A DNA stretch of 38,470 nt from Bacilli bacterium (GTDB lineage: Bacteria; Bacillota_I; Bacilli_A; RF39; UBA660), in NCBI GenBank assembly GCA_017476885.1, contig JAFUYX010000004.1, positions 1 through 38,470 on the forward strand. Direction: 5' to 3'. Positions within the stretch are counted from its first letter, which is position 1, and each line of letters opens with the position of its first letter. The notes beneath the pieces are model-generated. The model saw only the letters and a program-made list of their open reading frames with translations, had not been told where the DNA came from and did not search any database. Shown in pieces: positions 30,273 to 37,318 of the stretch. The translations under genes and the position numbers were made by a program.

Positions 30273-30923
30273 TTAAGCAACTTCATAATACCTTTTTAAT
30301 TGTCTCAAACTCTTTTTCTCATATCTAGATACCATTACTTGAGTCATTCCCATTTTCTTGGCCGTTTCGCTTTGGGTCAAATCTTCAAAATAACGATAAT
30401 TTAGAATTTTTTGTTCTTCACGTGGTAAGGTTCTTAACGAGTCATACAAGGATAGTTTCTCATCTAAAGGAATACTTTCCTTCTCAGCAATCGTTTCATA
30501 GTAATCTCTCATCTCTTCTCTTGGTGCATCTAAATAAACCATCTCTCTTGTTGCAGTAATGGCTTGTTCTACAAGTGATTCATCGAGTTCTAAAAACTGA
30601 GCAACCTCCTGCAAAGAAACATCTCTCATATATTTCTGACTTAGGGCATTCCTAGCAATCTGAATCTGTTTTGTTAATCTTAAGACCTCTTTATTCACTT
30701 TCATTTTTTGATCTTTACAAGCATACTCATACATCTCTCCTAAAATATAATCGTAAGCATACGTTGAGAACTTTACATTCTTATGTTCTTTATAATTTTT
30801 AAGAGCTTTCAATACTCCAATACGACCTGCTTGCATAAGGTCCTCGAAAGGAACTTGATAAAAATTTGAGGCAATTTTTTTCATAAGGGGTTCCATACTG
30901 CACAACAACTCTTCTGTAGTCAT
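30273..30923 (-). CDS. sigF: SigF/SigG-family sporulation-type sigma factor
   Basis: 216 aa from ATG 30923, chosen because AAAGGATT lies 6 nt before it; earlier in-frame codons fall inside the upstream gene. Region 2 has FEDLMQAGRIGVLKAL and KFSTYAYDYILGEM. Region 3 has MRDVSLQEVAQFL. Region 4.2 has SETAKKMGMTQVMVSRYEKKSL, close to the forespore sigma factors. It follows a SpoIIAA-like gene by about 10 nt, as spoIIAC does in Bacillus, but the anti-sigma gene spoIIAB is not there. Family membership is sure; whether it acts as SigF or as a related general factor is not. Confidence 0.85.
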   Translation of the reverse strand: MTTEELLCSMEPLMKKIASNFYQVPFEDLMQAGRIGVLKALKNYKEHKNVKFSTYAYDYILGEMYEYACKDQKMKVNKEVLRLTKQIQIARNALSQKYMRDVSLQEVAQFLELDESLVEQAITATREMVYLDAPREEMRDYYETIAEKESIPLDEKLSLYDSLRTLPREEQKILNYRYFEDLTQSETAKKMGMTQVMVSRYEKKSLRQLKRYYEVA

Positions 30924-30933
30924 ATAATCCTTT

Positions 30934-31230
30934 CTATTGCACGTGCATTCGATAACCAATCAAACTTTTTTTAATACTTTTTTTGACGTCAAATAAAATC
31001 ATTTTTCCTTGTTGTTCTTTTAAAATTAATTTTGTTTTCAGAAGCGCATATTTTCCATCATAATCCACCTTTTTTAATTTTTTACAATCACAAAGAACTT
31101 GTTTAATCTGATATTCTTGGATGTAAGGAATCATATAATGATCAATCTTATAGGTGCTTCTCTTAGTTAAATTTCCAGAAATAGTTACGTGAAGAACATC
31201 ATCTCTTCGATCTAAGTTTAACAATAACAT
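30934..31230 (-). CDS. spoIIAA: SpoIIAA-like STAS protein with Asp at the phospho-site
   Basis: 98 aa with the STAS layout: a first strand VLHVTISG, then VLCDCKKLKKVDYDGKYAL, which aligns with the SpoIIAA segment containing MDSSG. The phosphorylated Ser58 of Bacillus SpoIIAA is Asp58 here, and the preceding Ser is Tyr. SpoIIAA normally binds the anti-sigma/kinase SpoIIAB and is phosphorylated by it. SpoIIAB is missing from this locus. AAGGTG precedes the ATG. It is coupled to the sigma-factor gene and separated from dacF by a terminator. Function is probably altered or lost. Confidence 0.7.
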   Translation of the reverse strand: MLLLNLDRRDDVLHVTISGNLTKRSTYKIDHYMIPYIQEYQIKQVLCDCKKLKKVDYDGKYALLKTKLILKEQQGKMILFDVKKSIKKSLIGYRMHVQ

Positions 31231-31325
31231 AGCATCACCTTGCCTACTTTAATATAGAACAATTCAAATATTTTTTAAACAAATTCGACAAACCATGTCA
31301 TATTTTTATTCTCTCCATAACAAAT

Positions 31326-31351
31326 GAAAAAGTCTGAATTCATAATTCAGA
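31326..31351 (-). terminator. Terminator after dacF
   Basis: On the minus strand TCTGAATT/AATTCAGA with a 3-nt loop is followed by CTTTTTC. It separates dacF from the STAS/sigma pair, which are often one operon in Bacillus. Confidence 0.75.
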
Positions 31352-31367
31352 TTCTTTTTAAACGCCC

Positions 31368-32525
31368 TTATTTAAGAAACATTTTCCCTATTGTGAATCG
31401 ATTGATATTTTTTAACCATATTTCAAAAAAGTTTAATTCTACGATGTCTTCTTGTACCGTAACATCTAACTGATCTATGACTTCGCCATTCTCATTTTTT
31501 ACTTCGAGTTTTGCAATAATATCGCCTCTTTTTACCGGAGCCACGAGTACCTCTTTATCAAGAAAATAATTATAATTAGGAAGTGAATCTTGCTTTTTTA
31601 ATAATCTGGTATAATCTTTTGTTAAAACAAGATCAACATAATCTTTATTCCCCATCTCCACTTTTCTTTTCCCTAAAGAGCTCTCTTTTGATAAAACAAT
31701 TTTATTAACATAATTGCTAAATCCGTAGTTTAATAAATTGGTAGTATCACTACTCCTTAAATTACTATTCTCTACTCCCATAACAACAGTAATAAAACGG
31801 GTATTTTCTCTTTTGGCTGTTGCTGTCAAACAATACCCAGCATTCGAAGTATAACCAGTTTTAAGCCCATCAACTCCATTATAAAAACGAACTAATTTAT
31901 TGGTGTTAACAAGCCAAACACTAGAACCATCATTTTTCTTTAAATAATCTTCATACGTACTAGAAAACTCTAAAATATCCTCATGAGAAATCAATTCACG
32001 AGCAATCACTGCCATGTCTTTTGCACTAACCTGATGTCCATCCATATCAAGGCCATGGGGATTTTTAAAAGTACTATGTTCAAGTCCAAGTTCTAAAGCT
32101 CTTTCATTCATTTTTTGAACAAAGGCTTCCTCACTTCCCTCAACAAACTCAGCCATCGCCACTACAGCATCATTTCCACTGGCAATAGCAATTCCCTTAA
32201 CCAGTTCCCTAACACTATATTTTTCACCCGTTTGCAAAAACACTTGAGAACCACCCATGGAAGAAGCATGATCACTAACTACTACCATATCATCCCAAGA
32301 AATTCTTCCTCCATCAATGGCTTCCATAATTAACAACATACTCATAATTTTAGTCATAGAAGCAGGGGGCAAAGCCTCCTCAGCATTTTTCTCATATAAG
32401 ACTTCTCCTGTATCATAAGACATTAATATGGCGCTTTTGGAATTTGGAGCCAAATCCACTTCTTCCGCAGAAACCATTCCTATCCAAAAAAACATTCCTA
32501 ATAAGAATAACCAGATTCTTTTCAT
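31368..32525 (-). CDS. dacF: D-alanyl-D-alanine carboxypeptidase (DacF type)
   Basis: 385 aa. A signal peptide covers about residues 1-20 (ends MVSA). The catalytic motifs of class C PBPs are SMTK (Ser56, Lys59), SGN (116-118) and KTG (222-224). A beta-rich PBP5-C domain follows, and the C-terminus ends in an amphipathic stretch (FFEIWLKNINRFTIGKMFLK) that would bind the membrane. It trims the terminal D-Ala of peptidoglycan stem peptides outside the membrane. Its place upstream of spoIIAA/sigF relatives matches dacF of Bacillus. The ATG has GAGGTGTAG upstream. Confidence 0.95.
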   Translation of the reverse strand: MKRIWLFLLGMFFWIGMVSAEEVDLAPNSKSAILMSYDTGEVLYEKNAEEALPPASMTKIMSMLLIMEAIDGGRISWDDMVVVSDHASSMGGSQVFLQTGEKYSVRELVKGIAIASGNDAVVAMAEFVEGSEEAFVQKMNERALELGLEHSTFKNPHGLDMDGHQVSAKDMAVIARELISHEDILEFSSTYEDYLKKNDGSSVWLVNTNKLVRFYNGVDGLKTGYTSNAGYCLTATAKRENTRFITVVMGVENSNLRSSDTTNLLNYGFSNYVNKIVLSKESSLGKRKVEMGNKDYVDLVLTKDYTRLLKKQDSLPNYNYFLDKEVLVAPVKRGDIIAKLEVKNENGEVIDQLDVTVQEDIVELNFFEIWLKNINRFTIGKMFLK

Positions 32526-32569: not shown

Positions 32570-32600
32570 CCAAAAGAGATGAACATATGTCCATCTCTAA
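32570..32600 (-). terminator. Terminator of the bacteriocin operon
   Basis: On the minus strand a hairpin AGAGATG...CATCTCT with a small inner ACATATGT palindrome is followed by TTTTGG. It lies just after the stop of the last peptide gene and before dacF. The T-run is short; edges are approximate. Confidence 0.65.
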
Positions 32601-32602
32601 AA

Positions 32603-32761
32603 CTAGCAATAGTTTCTTTTAAACATCCTAGATAAAGCAGTACCAACATAGGTTCCTAAACTATAAAGAAGCGTTACTCCCCTAATAATCGCATTTGCAA
32701 AAGTCGCATTAAAAGTAGCTCCTCCATAAACACTAGAAAGTTCTGGTTCTTTTAAAATCAT
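32603..32761 (-). CDS. Double-glycine bacteriocin-like peptide C (52 aa)
   Basis: ATG 32761, preceded by AGAGGAGGAG; stop TAG. The leader MILKEPELSSVYGG is 14 residues and fits the class II consensus: Leu-12, Glu-8, Leu-7, Val-4, Gly-2, Gly-1. The predicted mature peptide has 38 residues, begins ATFNATFANAIIRG and is hydrophobic. It has a GxxxG motif (mature 22-26, GTYVG) and a basic end with a C-terminal Cys (RMFKRNYC). There are four basic and no acidic residues. It is third in a run of three such genes behind a C39 exporter, which would cut after Gly-Gly. I recognise no known bacteriocin. Confidence 0.85.
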   Translation of the reverse strand: MILKEPELSSVYGGATFNATFANAIIRGVTLLYSLGTYVGTALSRMFKRNYC

Positions 32762-32785
32762 AAAACTCCTCCTCTCTATTAGATT

Positions 32786-32917
32786 TTAACGAAATCTAGG
32801 AATCGTAAAACGAAGATACGATTTCATCAAACGAAAGATTCCAAAAACAACCCAACCCAGGACATTCTGAATTCCTCCTCCATAAATATTCTTTAATTCC
32901 AATTCTTGTAACTTCAT
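32786..32917 (-). CDS. Double-glycine bacteriocin-like peptide B (43 aa)
   Basis: ATG 32917, preceded by AAAGGAG; stop TAA. The leader MKLQELELKNIYGG has the same 14-residue length and the same Leu-12, Glu-8, Leu-7, Ile-4, Gly-Gly as its neighbours. The predicted mature peptide has 29 residues: a hydrophobic half (GIQNVLGWVVFGIF) and a basic half (RLMKSYLRFTIPRFR). It has five basic and no acidic residues and no Cys, so it probably forms an amphipathic or membrane-inserting helix. No known family is recognised. Confidence 0.85.
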   Translation of the reverse strand: MKLQELELKNIYGGGIQNVLGWVVFGIFRLMKSYLRFTIPRFR

Positions 32918-32932
32918 ATGATAATCTCCTTT

Positions 32933-33073
32933 CTATTTACAAGCCAAAGGTCGAAATAAACCATCCAAAACTCCAATTAGGAAGGTAGCAACACCCCCTA
33001 AAACTCCCGCAACAAATTTCCAAGACAATGCTCCACCCTGAATTTGAAATAATTCGCTACGATCTAAAATCAT
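32933..33073 (-). CDS. Double-glycine bacteriocin-like peptide A (46 aa)
   Basis: ATG 33073; stop TAG. The leader MILDRSELFQIQGG has 14 residues with Leu-12, Glu-8, Leu-7, Ile-4, Gly-Gly. The predicted mature peptide has 32 residues, is strongly hydrophobic and starts ALSWKFVAG. It carries two GxxxG motifs (mature 9-13 and 20-24) and ends PLACK with a single Cys next to the C-terminus. GxxxG helices mediate pairing in two-peptide bacteriocins. Its ribosome site lies inside the last codons of the 60-aa gene upstream, one base separating stop and ATG, so the two are translationally coupled. Confidence 0.88.
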   Translation of the reverse strand: MILDRSELFQIQGGALSWKFVAGVLGGVATFLIGVLDGLFRPLACK

Positions 33074-33074
33074 T

Positions 33075-33257
33075 TTATCCACCTCCTTTCATCACACTGA
33101 AAAGGATTTCTAAAAACGTCGTATCACTTTCAAAGGAAAAGGTTCCAAAATACCCCACAAAAAGTAAAAACAAAATAATCACAATTATCAAACCATACTT
33201 TTTACCATAGTCATGATAAGCAAGATAATATTCAAAATCACCATTTTTCTGACTCAT
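33075..33257 (-). CDS. 60-aa single-pass membrane protein of the bacteriocin operon
   Basis: ATG 33257 overlaps the exporter stop (ATGA). The first 20 residues are polar and rich in Tyr and charge (MSQKNGDFEYYLAYHDYGKK), then comes one membrane segment (about 22-38, IIVIILFLLFVGYF) and a short outer part ending VMKGGG. The three Gly codons are the ribosome site of the next gene, so that ending may be forced by RNA rather than by function. It has no double-glycine leader. By position it may be an immunity protein or an exporter accessory; no family is recognised. Confidence 0.75.
   Translation of the reverse strand: MSQKNGDFEYYLAYHDYGKKYGLIIVIILFLLFVGYFGTFSFESDTTFLEILFSVMKGGG
33079..33089 (-). 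promoter_or_regulatory. Ribosome site of peptide A nested in the 60-aa gene
   Basis: AAAGGAGGTGG on the minus strand, an almost perfect Shine-Dalgarno, lies 5 nt before the ATG at 33073. At the same time it encodes Lys-Gly-Gly of the preceding gene. It decides the start of peptide A and couples the two genes. Confidence 0.85.
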
Positions 33258-35272
33258 GAGAGACTCACCACCCTATCAAAAAGATGTTCTACTTTTCGAT
33301 GTGAAATATAAAGAAGCGTATGCTCATGCAAATAATTTCTCATATTTAAAATGATATCTTTTTCCATCTCCTCTTCCACATTACCTAACGCCTCATCTAA
33401 AACATAAATAGAAGTATCTCTAAGAAGAATACGAGCAAGTAAAACTCTCTCCTGTTCTCCACAAGACAACGTCCCTTCTAGAATCGTTGAATCATATGAC
33501 AGCTTCTTGTTTCTAACAATCTCATCTACATGACAAATTTGACATACTTTTAAAAATCTACTTTCTTCAACCTCTTTTCCAAACAAAATATTTTCTCGAA
33601 TAGTTCCCCAAAAAAGATGTTCTCTCTGACTTAGATAAGCAATATTACTTGTTATGTCTTGAAAATGAAGTTCAGAGATAGGATACTCATCAAACCAAAT
33701 AATTCCCTCATATCCATCTACTTCTCCCATTAAAATCTTACACAAAGTGCTTTTTCCTGATCCACTCTTTCCTTTCAAAAACACATGTTCAGAAGAATCA
33801 ACTTGAAAACAAAGAGATTGAAATACCGGTCGATTTCCATAATAAGAAAAGGTTAAATCTTCAACTCGAAGCGAAGAAAAAGAAATGTCTTCTAAAACCG
33901 GTGAAGTTTCTTCTTTGATCGATAAATATTCATTAATTTTAGAATAAATAGTTTGATAATAAGAGATTCTTGGCAAATATTCTCCTAAACTTTGAACTGG
34001 TCTTATCAAATAGAAAAGAAGATTTTGAATCGTCAAAAAATCAATTAAACTGAAGTGCTTCTCATACAATAAAAACACTCCACAAGCAAAAAAGGAAAAG
34101 AGAAAAAACTGTAAATAAAACGATTTAACCCATTCAATTCTCAATAATTTCTTTTGGATTTTCTGCCTTGTTTTCACCGTTTCAACCAAAGAGAGTGTGG
34201 TCTTATTTAGTAAGTAATCCTGAGCATGAGCATGTCTAGCACTCACAAGAGTCTTTATATATTCTAACGTTGCAGATTTCCAATTCGTTTCATTTTCTAT
34301 ATGTCCCCGCATTTGAGCTGAGATTTTAGAAGAAAACACCCATTGAATGAAGAAATACATTCCAATTCCTAAAAGAACTAAAAGTCCTAAAATCCGATTC
34401 AATAAAAGAAGAAAGAAAAATGAAAGTATACTAAAGAAAAGTTCAAATCCAAAAGTAATACACAGATTACTAAACAGATTTTTCAATTCTTCTGATTCCT
34501 CGACTCTTTTTAGGATTTCAGCTTCATGATACGTTTGATACTTCTTCATAGGAAGTTTAATAAGATGAAACAAAAATTCCCTTAAAGAATACAAATCAAC
34601 TTTCTTTTCAATGACAAGTTTGAGTTTTTCTTTTTCATAAAAAAATAAGTATTGAAAGAAACAGAAAGCCAAAAAACAACCTGTGAAAAGAAAGAAACGA
34701 TTGAAATGCTGAGTTTGAACCATTACCTTCACATAAAACTGATTCACCATTTGTAAGAGAAAAAATAATAATTCTAGAAAAAAAGTCCAAAAGAATTCTT
34801 TCCTATTTTCATGAAATATTTTCAAAAAAAATTGCATCAATGCGTGTTCTTTAGGTAATTTAGGAATACGTTGATAAGGAGAAGCAACAATCACTACTTG
34901 ATCAAAAACCTTAAAAAAGTTTTCCAAGTTCTCTTTATAACATCCCTTCGCTGGATCCATCACCTCAATTTTATTCTTATACACTTTATTTACCACCACA
35001 AAATGTTGCAAGCCATTTTCTAATGATAAATGAGCAATAAAAGGAACAGGAAGTTTAGAGAGAAATGCATTTTCAATTCTCATACCATAGGCATCAAAAT
35101 GATACTTTTTTAAACTATTCACAAGATGGTAAGCATTCGTTCCATGAACACTCGTAAACGTATCTTCTCTTAAAGTTTCAATAGGAACATATCCATGATA
35201 GAATTCAATCAAATAGGATAAACACGAAACTCCACAATCTTGAAAATCTCTTTGAAGTTTTTGCCTTTTCAT
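33254..35272 (-). CDS. C39-peptidase ABC exporter for double-glycine peptides
   Basis: 672 aa, the three-part PCAT layout. The N-terminal C39 peptidase has catalytic Cys13 (QDCGVSC), His90 (LQHFVVV) and Asp106 (MDPAKG). A membrane domain follows with about six segments (residues 155-440). The ATPase has Walker A GKSGSGKST (about 503-511), a signature reading LSCGEQE (normally LSGGQ/E), Walker B IYVLDEA (about 624) and the H-loop YISHRK. It cuts leader peptides after Gly-Gly while exporting the core. All catalytic residues are present. The three peptide genes directly downstream are its likely substrates. AAAGGATT precedes the ATG. Confidence 0.95.
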   Translation of the reverse strand: MKRQKLQRDFQDCGVSCLSYLIEFYHGYVPIETLREDTFTSVHGTNAYHLVNSLKKYHFDAYGMRIENAFLSKLPVPFIAHLSLENGLQHFVVVNKVYKNKIEVMDPAKGCYKENLENFFKVFDQVVIVASPYQRIPKLPKEHALMQFFLKIFHENRKEFFWTFFLELLFFLLQMVNQFYVKVMVQTQHFNRFFLFTGCFLAFCFFQYLFFYEKEKLKLVIEKKVDLYSLREFLFHLIKLPMKKYQTYHEAEILKRVEESEELKNLFSNLCITFGFELFFSILSFFFLLLLNRILGLLVLLGIGMYFFIQWVFSSKISAQMRGHIENETNWKSATLEYIKTLVSARHAHAQDYLLNKTTLSLVETVKTRQKIQKKLLRIEWVKSFYLQFFLFSFFACGVFLLYEKHFSLIDFLTIQNLLFYLIRPVQSLGEYLPRISYYQTIYSKINEYLSIKEETSPVLEDISFSSLRVEDLTFSYYGNRPVFQSLCFQVDSSEHVFLKGKSGSGKSTLCKILMGEVDGYEGIIWFDEYPISELHFQDITSNIAYLSQREHLFWGTIRENILFGKEVEESRFLKVCQICHVDEIVRNKKLSYDSTILEGTLSCGEQERVLLARILLRDTSIYVLDEALGNVEEEMEKDIILNMRNYLHEHTLLYISHRKVEHLFDRVVSLS

Positions 35273-35320
35273 TTAGAAATCCTTTCTAAGAGAGTTTTTA
35301 CACCCTCTACTTACATATAC

Positions 35321-35385
35321 AAAAAAAAGAGAGATTTTCCTCTCAAATGATAAAAATTTGTATCAAGAATATGTATTCTCTCTTT
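35321..35385 (-). promoter_or_regulatory. Terminator/antiterminator-like leader before the exporter
   Basis: On the minus strand, GAGAGG-AAAA-TCTCTC followed by eight T (35344-35321) is an intrinsic terminator lying 49 nt before the exporter start. About 45 nt upstream of it, AAAGAGAGA (35385-35377) is perfectly complementary over 9 bases to TCTCTCTTT, the 3' arm of that terminator. The two pairings exclude each other, as in an attenuator. No gene lies between this and the fmt terminator. The sensor, if any, is unknown and the promoter is not clear. Confidence 0.5.
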
Positions 35386-35409: not shown

Positions 35410-35439
35410 AAGAAAAAACATTGAAAAAATTCAATGTTT
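35410..35439 (-). terminator. Terminator after fmt
   Basis: On the minus strand AAACATTGAA/TTCAATGTTT with a 4-nt loop is followed by TTTC. The stem overlaps the fmt stop codon. It marks off the bacteriocin locus from fmt. Confidence 0.8.
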
Positions 35440-36370
35440 AATTGATAATCCAATGCTCCACATCTTCTTTTAAGACCCCATTTAAATAGTCCCTTGTATC
35501 CATCATTTTCTTTCCAAATGGTTTAATTTTAGTTAAATAAATAATCCCATCTAAACAAGAAATGCCAATGCCATCTTTTCTAATATCTACAACTTTTCCT
35601 GGAATATCCACATTCTTCTTTTCAAAAGTAGCTTCATATACCTTAAACTCTTCTTGATTTACTAGCATATTTGCTACAGGCCAAGGATTCAATCCTCTAA
35701 TATGATTGATAATCTCATTCCCCGTTTTATGAAAGTCTAAATGTTCTTCCTCTCTTTTAATATTATAAGAAAAAGTAACTTCTTCCTCATTTTGTTTTAT
35801 TCTTTGATTTTTACCAGATACAATCAAAGGTAGAGTTTCCATTAATAAATCTGCACCCATCAAGGATAACTGATCATGTAAAGTTCCTACATTATCACTT
35901 GCTTGAATATCGTATTCTCTTTGACTAATAATGTCACCATCATCCATTCCCACGTCCATATACATAATAGTAACCCCAGTCTTCTCTTCTCCTCTAATTA
36001 AACACCAATGAATCGGAGCACCTCCTCTGTTTTTAGGCAACAAAGAAGCATGAACATTAATACATCCAAGTCTTGGATAATCTAAGATTACTTTAGGAAT
36101 AATCTGACCATACGCACACGTAATAATGATATCACATTCCGTATTTAAAATCTTATCATATTCTTTTCTGATCTTTTCAGGTTGAAAAACTTCAATTCCA
36201 TTTTCTAAAGCCACTTCTTTAATGGGGCTAAATTTAAGTTCTTGTTTTCTTCCAACTTTCTTATCTGGTTGAGTCACTACTAAAACAACATGACAATTCT
36301 CTATTAAACTCTTAAGCACAGGAACCGCAAAATCAGGAGTTCCCATAAATATAACTTTTAAATCCTTCAT
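35438..36370 (-). CDS. fmt: Methionyl-tRNA formyltransferase
   Basis: 310 aa. It starts with FMGTPDFAVPVL, has NVHASLLPKNRGGAPIHW (catalytic Asn and His) and MYMDVGMDDGDII, and a C-terminal OB-like domain (PWPVANM onward). It formylates Met-tRNAi using formyl-tetrahydrofolate. The length is normal. GAGGGATATGT precedes the ATG. The usual neighbours def and sun are not seen here. Confidence 0.97.
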   Translation of the reverse strand: MKDLKVIFMGTPDFAVPVLKSLIENCHVVLVVTQPDKKVGRKQELKFSPIKEVALENGIEVFQPEKIRKEYDKILNTECDIIITCAYGQIIPKVILDYPRLGCINVHASLLPKNRGGAPIHWCLIRGEEKTGVTIMYMDVGMDDGDIISQREYDIQASDNVGTLHDQLSLMGADLLMETLPLIVSGKNQRIKQNEEEVTFSYNIKREEEHLDFHKTGNEIINHIRGLNPWPVANMLVNQEEFKVYEATFEKKNVDIPGKVVDIRKDGIGISCLDGIIYLTKIKPFGKKMMDTRDYLNGVLKEDVEHWIIN

Positions 36371-36424: not shown

Positions 36425-37318
36425 TTAAAGAACAAGATATTCTCTACTTTTTATTCGTTTGTCACTACAGTATTCCACGACATATTTGTTGTTTTTTCGA
36501 ACTAGAATAATTCCTATTGTTTTACCATGAATGCTTTTCTTTACATTCTTATCAATGTAATTCATATAGACTTCTATCTGACCTATATGCTCTTTTTTGA
36601 GTTCTCCTAACTTTAACTCAATTACTACGTAACTGTTATATTCAATATTGAATAAGAGTAAATCAATATAGTTGTACCGATTTCCTAACTTAATTTTATA
36701 TTCGTTTTCAATAAAAGTAAAACCAGTACCTAATTCTTTTAAAAACGAAGGAATATCTTCTAAGATGATTTTCTGTAACACTTTCTCTGATATTTCTTCA
36801 TATCGATTCTTATTTTGAATCATAATTGGATTTTTAATATAATCTGTAATCTCTTGTTTCTTGCTTTGATTCTTTATCTTTTCTTTCGTTTCCTCATCTA
36901 ATCTTTCGTATTCTTTATTCTTGATTCTATTACGTAGTTCTCTGACCGATAAATTTTGGATTTCAGTTAATTTTATATAATAGTTAATCTCTTCATTGCT
37001 TTTAAAAGTCATTAAGCATCTATAATGAGTAAAAGTTAATTGGTCACTCACTGAGTGACTTTTTGAGAATCTATAGAACTGACGAATATATTTTAATGAT
37101 GTAGCAGAATAATTTTTCCCAAGCTCTCTTGTCAGTTTTTCAGCATATTTTTTAATGATTCCTTCGCCATAATGCTTTCCTGCTTCTTCAAGTGTTTTTC
37201 CTATACTTGCATAAGTTCTTAAATCACTTCTGTTTTTGCTATAGTCCTTTACTCTTTTAGTGATTTCATTATTTAATATTTCTCCTTTGATACTCTCATA
37301 ATACTTGTCTTTTTCCAT
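36425..37318 (-). CDS. DUF1016/YhcG-type PD-(D/E)XK nuclease
   Basis: 297 aa. The N-terminal helical half (YASIGKTLEEAGKHYGEGII, SATSLKYIRQFYRFS) matches the DUF1016 N domain. The C-terminal half has the nuclease core YIDLLLFN, then VVIELKLGELKKEHIGQ, giving the Asp and Glu-x-Lys of PD-(D/E)XK enzymes, and MNYID. Proteins of this type are found in mobile and defence contexts. It is Lys/Asn-rich like much of the window. AGGAGGAG precedes the ATG. No methyltransferase, restriction or toxin partner is adjacent, so it is an orphan. The function is inferred to be DNA cleavage. Confidence 0.85.
   Translation of the reverse strand: MEKDKYYESIKGEILNNEITKRVKDYSKNRSDLRTYASIGKTLEEAGKHYGEGIIKKYAEKLTRELGKNYSATSLKYIRQFYRFSKSHSVSDQLTFTHYRCLMTFKSNEEINYYIKLTEIQNLSVRELRNRIKNKEYERLDEETKEKIKNQSKKQEITDYIKNPIMIQNKNRYEEISEKVLQKIILEDIPSFLKELGTGFTFIENEYKIKLGNRYNYIDLLLFNIEYNSYVVIELKLGELKKEHIGQIEVYMNYIDKNVKKSIHGKTIGIILVRKNNKYVVEYCSDKRIKSREYLVL

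Follow-up and report, generated by a model that had tools for sequence, protein, structure and literature searches.

A family-wide operon with a SigH-type promoter predicted to encode an exporter and an exported peptide pair in UBA660 bacteria

A 38,470-nt stretch of DNA from a Bacilli bacterium (contig JAFUYX010000004.1 of assembly GCA_017476885.1; GTDB order RF39, family UBA660), hereafter the window, carries on its reverse strand a compact operon (positions 32603-35272) with genes for a C39 peptidase-ABC exporter, a 60-residue membrane protein and three small peptide precursors, termed A, X and B. Comparison with related genomes indicates that what is conserved is a pair of peptides, A and B, with its own exporter. 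We read the locus as a core operon of the family for a class IIb-like, membrane-active two-peptide factor, timed to the SigH/competence transition, and assign this reading a probability of about 0.52. Within it, the sequences make it nearly certain that A and B are an exported pair and very probable that SigH controls the operon, while a membrane-active toxin role for the pair, drawn by analogy, has an even chance. The original prediction, made from the window alone, had described a bacteriocin locus with three peptides and a dedicated exporter, the peptides being antimicrobials or signals.

The three precursors have leaders of exactly 14 residues that share Leu at -12, Glu at -8, Leu at -7, Ile or Val at -4 and a terminal Gly-Gly, as the original prediction had stated. 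Leader and core, respectively, are MILDRSELFQIQGG and ALSWKFVAGVLGGVATFLIGVLDGLFRPLACK for A, MKLQELELKNIYGG and GIQNVLGWVVFGIFRLMKSYLRFTIPRFR for X, and MILKEPELSSVYGG and ATFNATFANAIIRGVTLLYSLGTYVGTALSRMFKRNYC for B, with net core charges of +2 for A, +5 for X and +4 for B. A strong Shine-Dalgarno sequence precedes each of the three frames, and the genes are tightly packed: the frame of the 60-residue protein overlaps that of the exporter by 4 nt, followed by gaps of 1, 15 and 24 nt ahead of the successive peptide frames. The three small genes, said to be easily missed by gene callers, were recovered at their predicted sizes of 46, 43 and 52 aa. For A, an upstream GTG start (49 aa) was rejected, since it is the ATG at 33073 that lies behind the Shine-Dalgarno sequence and yields the 14-residue leader. 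The A family has a ...DGxxRPxxC motif and eight invariant positions in its alignment (L8, G13, G14, F31, G34, D37, G38, and C45), while the B family has a ...GRSxGSxxRR...C motif with M1, G13, G14, G36, G40, and C52 invariant; the window A scored 76 bits against the A profile. When close pairs were compared, pN was 0.01-0.16 and pS 0.23-0.61 for A and B; the frames are therefore judged to be coding and under purifying selection rather than chance open reading frames. The original prediction had named codon-level conservation as the test of its frames, and on this point A and B were found to be conserved in congeners, while the case for X consists of its leader and Shine-Dalgarno sequence. Peptide X has neither Cys nor GxxxG, and no counterpart was found between A and B in congeners, such that X is specific to the window genome within the sample. 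No known core was recognized among the three, in agreement with the original prediction, and among solved structures no relative of A or B was found.

Apart from the exporter, no protein of the genome exceeds the C39 cut-off. The exporter matches Peptidase_C39 at 97 bits (cut-off 22) and ABC_tran at 81 bits, has the catalytic residues Cys13, His90, and Asp106, and carries a Walker A motif at 501, a signature-like LSCGE at 602 and a Walker B motif at 623; PCAT and ComA structures match it along the full length. The call of a complete and dedicated C39-ABC exporter was thus right, and the protein would be expected to cut double-glycine leaders and export the peptides. Homologs were detected in all 24 congeners searched, mostly at 32-40% identity, and across the order an exporter with a C39 domain is encoded by 250 of the 288 genomes, which represent 93 of the 102 genera. 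These 288 genomes all fall in one family, and the comparison genomes are mostly fragmented assemblies.

The peptides follow the exporter in nearly all loci read. Sixty-six exporter loci from 42 genera were read (a few duplicate one genome), and both A and B were identified downstream in 63 of them, representing 40 genera; the A profile matched in 41 of the 42 genera, as did the B profile. Across 296 genomes of the class, the A profile matched 34 of 38 in the family versus 1 of 258 in other families, the latter match being marginal. In the exporter tree, the four multi-member genera remained clades (support 0.82 for g1 and about 1.0 for g17, g27, and g32), and downstream neighbors recurred, with regular-expression counts of 23 loci for an rpsU-like gene and about 31 for a YqeY-like gene. 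The clades by genus and the recurring neighbors together indicate a core locus that has been inherited vertically. Of the gene order that the original prediction had proposed to seek in relatives, exporter, A and B are kept, but X is not, and the accessory protein discussed below is longer or absent. Since X lacks a congener counterpart and the congeners and 41 other genera share only A and B, the "three-peptide" arrangement is best described as local variation. Other lineages vary as well. The g27 loci (L253, L239, L230, L234, and L243) have an A/B pair that has diverged, with cysteines shifted away from the C terminus or lost, and some of these loci hold a second pair beside it; the g17 loci (L225, L227, L228, L231, and L233) carry an additional A-like peptide (GGGLFGTIINIVVSVISFTKAILSLRNLRG in L225) before A and B, without the C-terminal Cys.

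Between exporter and peptides, the congeners (where the contig continues) encode an accessory protein of ~145 aa with one transmembrane segment. The 60-residue protein of the window, confirmed as an open reading frame with a single transmembrane segment, aligns as a shortened form of this accessory that retains the N-terminal transmembrane segment and the C terminus but misses the central ~85 residues, including a Cys pair; a Pfam search assigned it to no family. The KGGD end of the accessory was considered as a second Gly-Gly cleavage site and rejected, because it arises from in-frame translation of the Shine-Dalgarno sequence that serves peptide A (AAAGGAGGTG...). Several genera that retain exporter, A and B have no accessory (e.g., g18, g25, g35, and g107). 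Because it is absent from these genera and reduced in the window, the accessory is not essential for export and makes a poor candidate for a dedicated immunity protein. The short accessory and peptide X are, by these comparisons, variations of this one lineage. The features of the operon are listed in Table 1. The original prediction had also closed the operon with a terminator: a hairpin does stand 3' of peptide B, but only four T follow its stem, and a terminator scan did not call it.

Table 1. Predicted features of the operon in the window.
Feature	Position	Strand	Basis
C39 peptidase-ABC exporter, 672 aa	33254..35272	-	Pfam, catalytic residues, structure matches
Shortened accessory, 60 aa, single transmembrane segment	33075..33257	-	Alignment with congener accessories
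Peptide A precursor, 46 aa	32933..33073	-	Conserved A family
Extra peptide X precursor, 43 aa	32786..32917	-	Open reading frame, Shine-Dalgarno sequence, leader only
Peptide B precursor, 52 aa	32603..32761	-	Conserved B family
Sigma-H-type promoter, GAGAGGAAAA ... GTATATGTAAGTAG	35307..35343	-	Promoter sequence model
Hairpin 3' of peptide B, possible weak terminator	about 32575..32598	-	Read from sequence

The DNA upstream of the exporter was found to recur elsewhere in the genome. Aligned across exporter upstream regions, it reads AAAGGAAAT-N11-NNNGWAT followed by ATATAAGTAG, which fits the sigma-H promoter consensus; we judged the consensus RNAGGAWWW-N11/12-RNNGAAT to be matched, with GTAT often replacing GAAT in the final element, as in the window. 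The window promoter scored 28.5 bits (E-value 1.9e-6) with the promoter model R1, the site itself being in the training set. In each genome of the genus, the model gave between five and fifteen sites (E-value up to 0.1), and 80 non-exporter sites (E-value up to about 5e-4) were retrieved and the downstream gene read for each. The motif precedes comEA in 19 of 25 genus genomes and dnaG in nine (counts that include the window genome and a pattern search), and comEC comes after comEA in the window genome. Run on other genera, the model placed sites before exporters, before comEA in three cases and dnaG in about nine, and before a single spoIIAA-like gene. The repeat was considered as a mobile or RNA element, but its presence before comEA, dnaG, and unrelated genes at SigH spacing led us to reject this and to read it as a promoter. 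In Bacillus subtilis, dnaG-sigA and spoIIA are SigH targets. The genome also encodes a sigma factor whose best-matching families are SigH models (102-108 bits), and its gene lies between rlmB and secE-nusG, the same order as in B. subtilis. Elsewhere, SigH is reported to activate comEA in Lactobacillus sakei (PMC3364868) and to have a competence regulon in Staphylococcus aureus (PMC3486894).

The SigH-type motif was also found before genes of other kinds. Many encode PD-(D/E)XK (Rpn/transposase-like) nuclease-like proteins, often several per genome (L138, L140, L147, L150, L158, L201, and others; G000 C3, C7, and C70); among those scanned, Pfam confirmed L150 only, as PDDEXK_2. It is possible that such nucleases are tied to the competence programme. 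A nuclease-like protein with a weak NucS-type match is also encoded in the window (36425-37318) and, judged by eye, is similar to the gene behind a SigH-type motif at L310. Further sites precede DUF1016 and ORF6N genes or stand directly before large surface proteins (L162, L166, L168, L174, L189, L196, and L206); that of L162 has thioester (TED) and SpaA-type domains, and the other six resemble it.

In the window, the operon is flanked by fmt (35438-36370) on one side and by a dacF-spoIIAA-sigF group (30273-32525) on the other. Behind fmt, a hairpin with eight T after it (35329-35344) overlaps the SigH-type promoter of the operon. Behind dacF, the SpoIIAA-like gene (30934-31230) is directly followed by the SigF/SigG-type sigma gene (30273-30959), with no spoIIAB (anti-sigma factor) between them, unlike Bacillus. 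The adjoining dacF-spoIIAA-sigF genes, which recur in the genus, together with the SigH-type promoter and near-universal conservation, would suit peptides that act on the producer's own envelope, e.g., as a holin-like or structural pair for late growth or spore development. We consider this very improbable, as C39-exported peptides are normally released and other genera often have rpsU and yqeY, not sporulation genes, as neighbors.

The mature peptides were compared with class IIb bacteriocins. A GxxxG motif occurs in all 67 B cores (18% of shuffled cores) and in 56 of 67 A cores (43% of shuffled cores), and both window peptides have it. Cysteines near the C termini were found to covary: both peptides have one in 59 pairs, neither in 7, and a single pair is discordant (P about 1e-8, uncorrected for relatedness). 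The restriction to C-terminal Cys was made only after an initial count of any Cys in A or B, which gave weak covariation; with the restriction, it became clear. We infer from the covariation that A and B are probably joined by a disulfide through these residues. Against the NCBI class IIb cerein-7B family (TIGR03949), the window A scored 16.7 bits (cut-off 21.5), and three of eight A peptides of relatives scanned singly exceeded the cut-off (24.0-30.0 bits); peptide B matched no family above cut-off in model scans. The locus shares with class IIb (i) two adjacent small double-glycine genes; (ii) GxxxG in both peptides; and (iii) a C39 ABC exporter, but a cognate immunity gene in the operon was not found at the loci examined. 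Other than the exporter and, in many genera, the accessory, nothing was conserved beside the peptides in the loci read.

The class IIb features raise the question of an ordinary bacteriocin directed at other species, immunity to which would come from the accessory or from a gene elsewhere in the genome. The gene layout, leaders, GxxxG motifs, and TIGR03949 matches all agree with it; the extra peptides of some lineages (X in the window and the second A/B pair of g27) suggest diversification, and many genera conserve the accessory as a membrane protein. However, the locus is near-universal in the family, vertical and under purifying selection, and several genera with A and B lack the accessory, which is cut to 60 aa in the window; we therefore hold this explanation to be rather improbable. 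On the same grounds, together with the promoter common to comEA and dnaG and the lack of a conserved adjoining immunity gene, a stand-alone bacteriocin locus is not supported as a description.

In the reading we prefer, a SigH-family sigma factor active at the stationary-phase/competence transition would transcribe the operon along with comEA-comEC and dnaG, and the C39 domain of the exporter would cut precursors A and B after Gly-Gly before their release. Outside the cell, the two hydrophobic helices may pair via their GxxxG faces, probably with a disulfide between the C-terminal cysteines, insert into the membranes of neighboring or sibling cells and permeabilise them, such that lysed cells would yield DNA and nutrients while the producer can take up DNA. 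The coding status, leaders, exporter, gene pairing, conservation, SigH-type promoter, and common motif on which this scheme draws are well supported by the sequences; actual SigH dependence, disulfide pairing, membrane permeabilisation, and biological purpose are what we infer from them. A membrane-active factor is favored because of the class IIb-like structure and the analogy with CibAB, described below. More tentatively, the factor may be ancestral to the family, lack a dedicated immunity gene, act as an A-B disulfide heterodimer and be expressed by SigH with DNA uptake, coupling either neighbor lysis or signaling to competence in the core physiology of the whole lineage.

Several observations weigh against this interpretation. 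Training of the promoter model drew largely on DNA upstream of exporters, with a few sites of the window genome, and as a result only the comEA, dnaG, and spoIIAA sites elsewhere count as independent evidence. The SigH-like factor falls well below the NCBI equivalog cut-off (102 versus 295 bits), the GxxxG frequency in A is only moderately above chance, and the exceptions to paired C-terminal cysteines are confined to two genera (g17 and g27), which implies few independent events behind the covariation. No immunity gene is conserved beside A and B, and the loci of several genera consist of nothing but exporter, A and B, an uncommon arrangement among bacteriocins. Finally, near-universality in the family, vertical inheritance, and purifying selection are equally expected of a signal or a self-acting peptide and, with the missing immunity gene, leave room for either. 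The signal would be a ComC/BlpC-type pheromone pair, or one signaling peptide assisted by the other, sensed by a receptor on the cell surface and serving to coordinate the SigH/competence programme. The Gly-Gly leaders with their weak ComC-like scores, the family-wide conservation under purifying selection, the promoter common to competence genes, and LytTR-type regulators in 14 of 15 genus genomes tested are all consistent with it. Yet the only one of the 15 without a LytTR match is the window's own genome (about 92% complete), no kinase or regulator was seen adjoining the locus (receptor kinases elsewhere were not searched), and two hydrophobic cores with GxxxG and a conserved Cys, almost always kept as a pair, are unlike known linear pheromones. 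Overall, signaling is judged unlikely, though it carries appreciable weight.

Bacteriocin clusters are normally patchy and variable, while the present two-peptide system occurs almost throughout a family sampled in about 100 genera and is fixed together with its exporter. Kept in this way and apparently switched on with DNA-uptake genes, the locus resembles a core weapon or signal of the stationary phase more than an isolated bacteriocin. If the peptides act on neighbors, predation or cannibalism tied to competence would be a core trait beyond streptococci, in genomes near 1 Mb. The analysis also yields two peptide families with clear definitions, along with a promoter rule and the prediction of an A-B disulfide, all of which can be checked without culturing the organism.

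Among known systems, class IIb bacteriocins (lactococcin G, plantaricin EF/JK, and cerein 7B/lactobin A of TIGR03949) resemble the locus in their tandem pair of small double-glycine genes, C39-ABC exporter, optional accessory, and cationic, hydrophobic peptides with GxxxG, and some A peptides exceed the family cut-off. The present system differs in having no conserved adjacent immunity gene, near-universal and vertical occurrence, a C-terminal Cys in both peptides, a SigH-type promoter, and a peptide B outside known families above cut-off. CibAB is not known to have an exporter of its own. CibAB is described as a competence-induced two-peptide bacteriocin of Streptococcus pneumoniae whose genes are among the late competence genes (PMC5295010); as in the present case, a two-peptide factor accompanies such genes under a sigma factor linked to competence (ComX in pneumococcus, SigH type in the family), but CibAB has the immunity protein CibC, whereas the present operon has its own exporter and no immunity gene. 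Gallocin A, as reported, is likewise a two-peptide system with cysteine-containing peptides, in which the cysteines are needed for activity and gip is the immunity gene (PMC10100652). Its disulfides are placed within each peptide, whereas A and B usually have one conserved Cys near the end of each core, which makes an A-B bond (or dimers) more likely than an intrapeptide one. The Listeria SigH regulon offers a promoter parallel, as its comEA and dnaG-rpoD promoters have the same -35/-10 elements and spacing (e.g., AAAGGAATT-N11-GGCGAAT), and it differs in that the SigH units described in the cited part of that account include no two-peptide export operon (PMC4754846).

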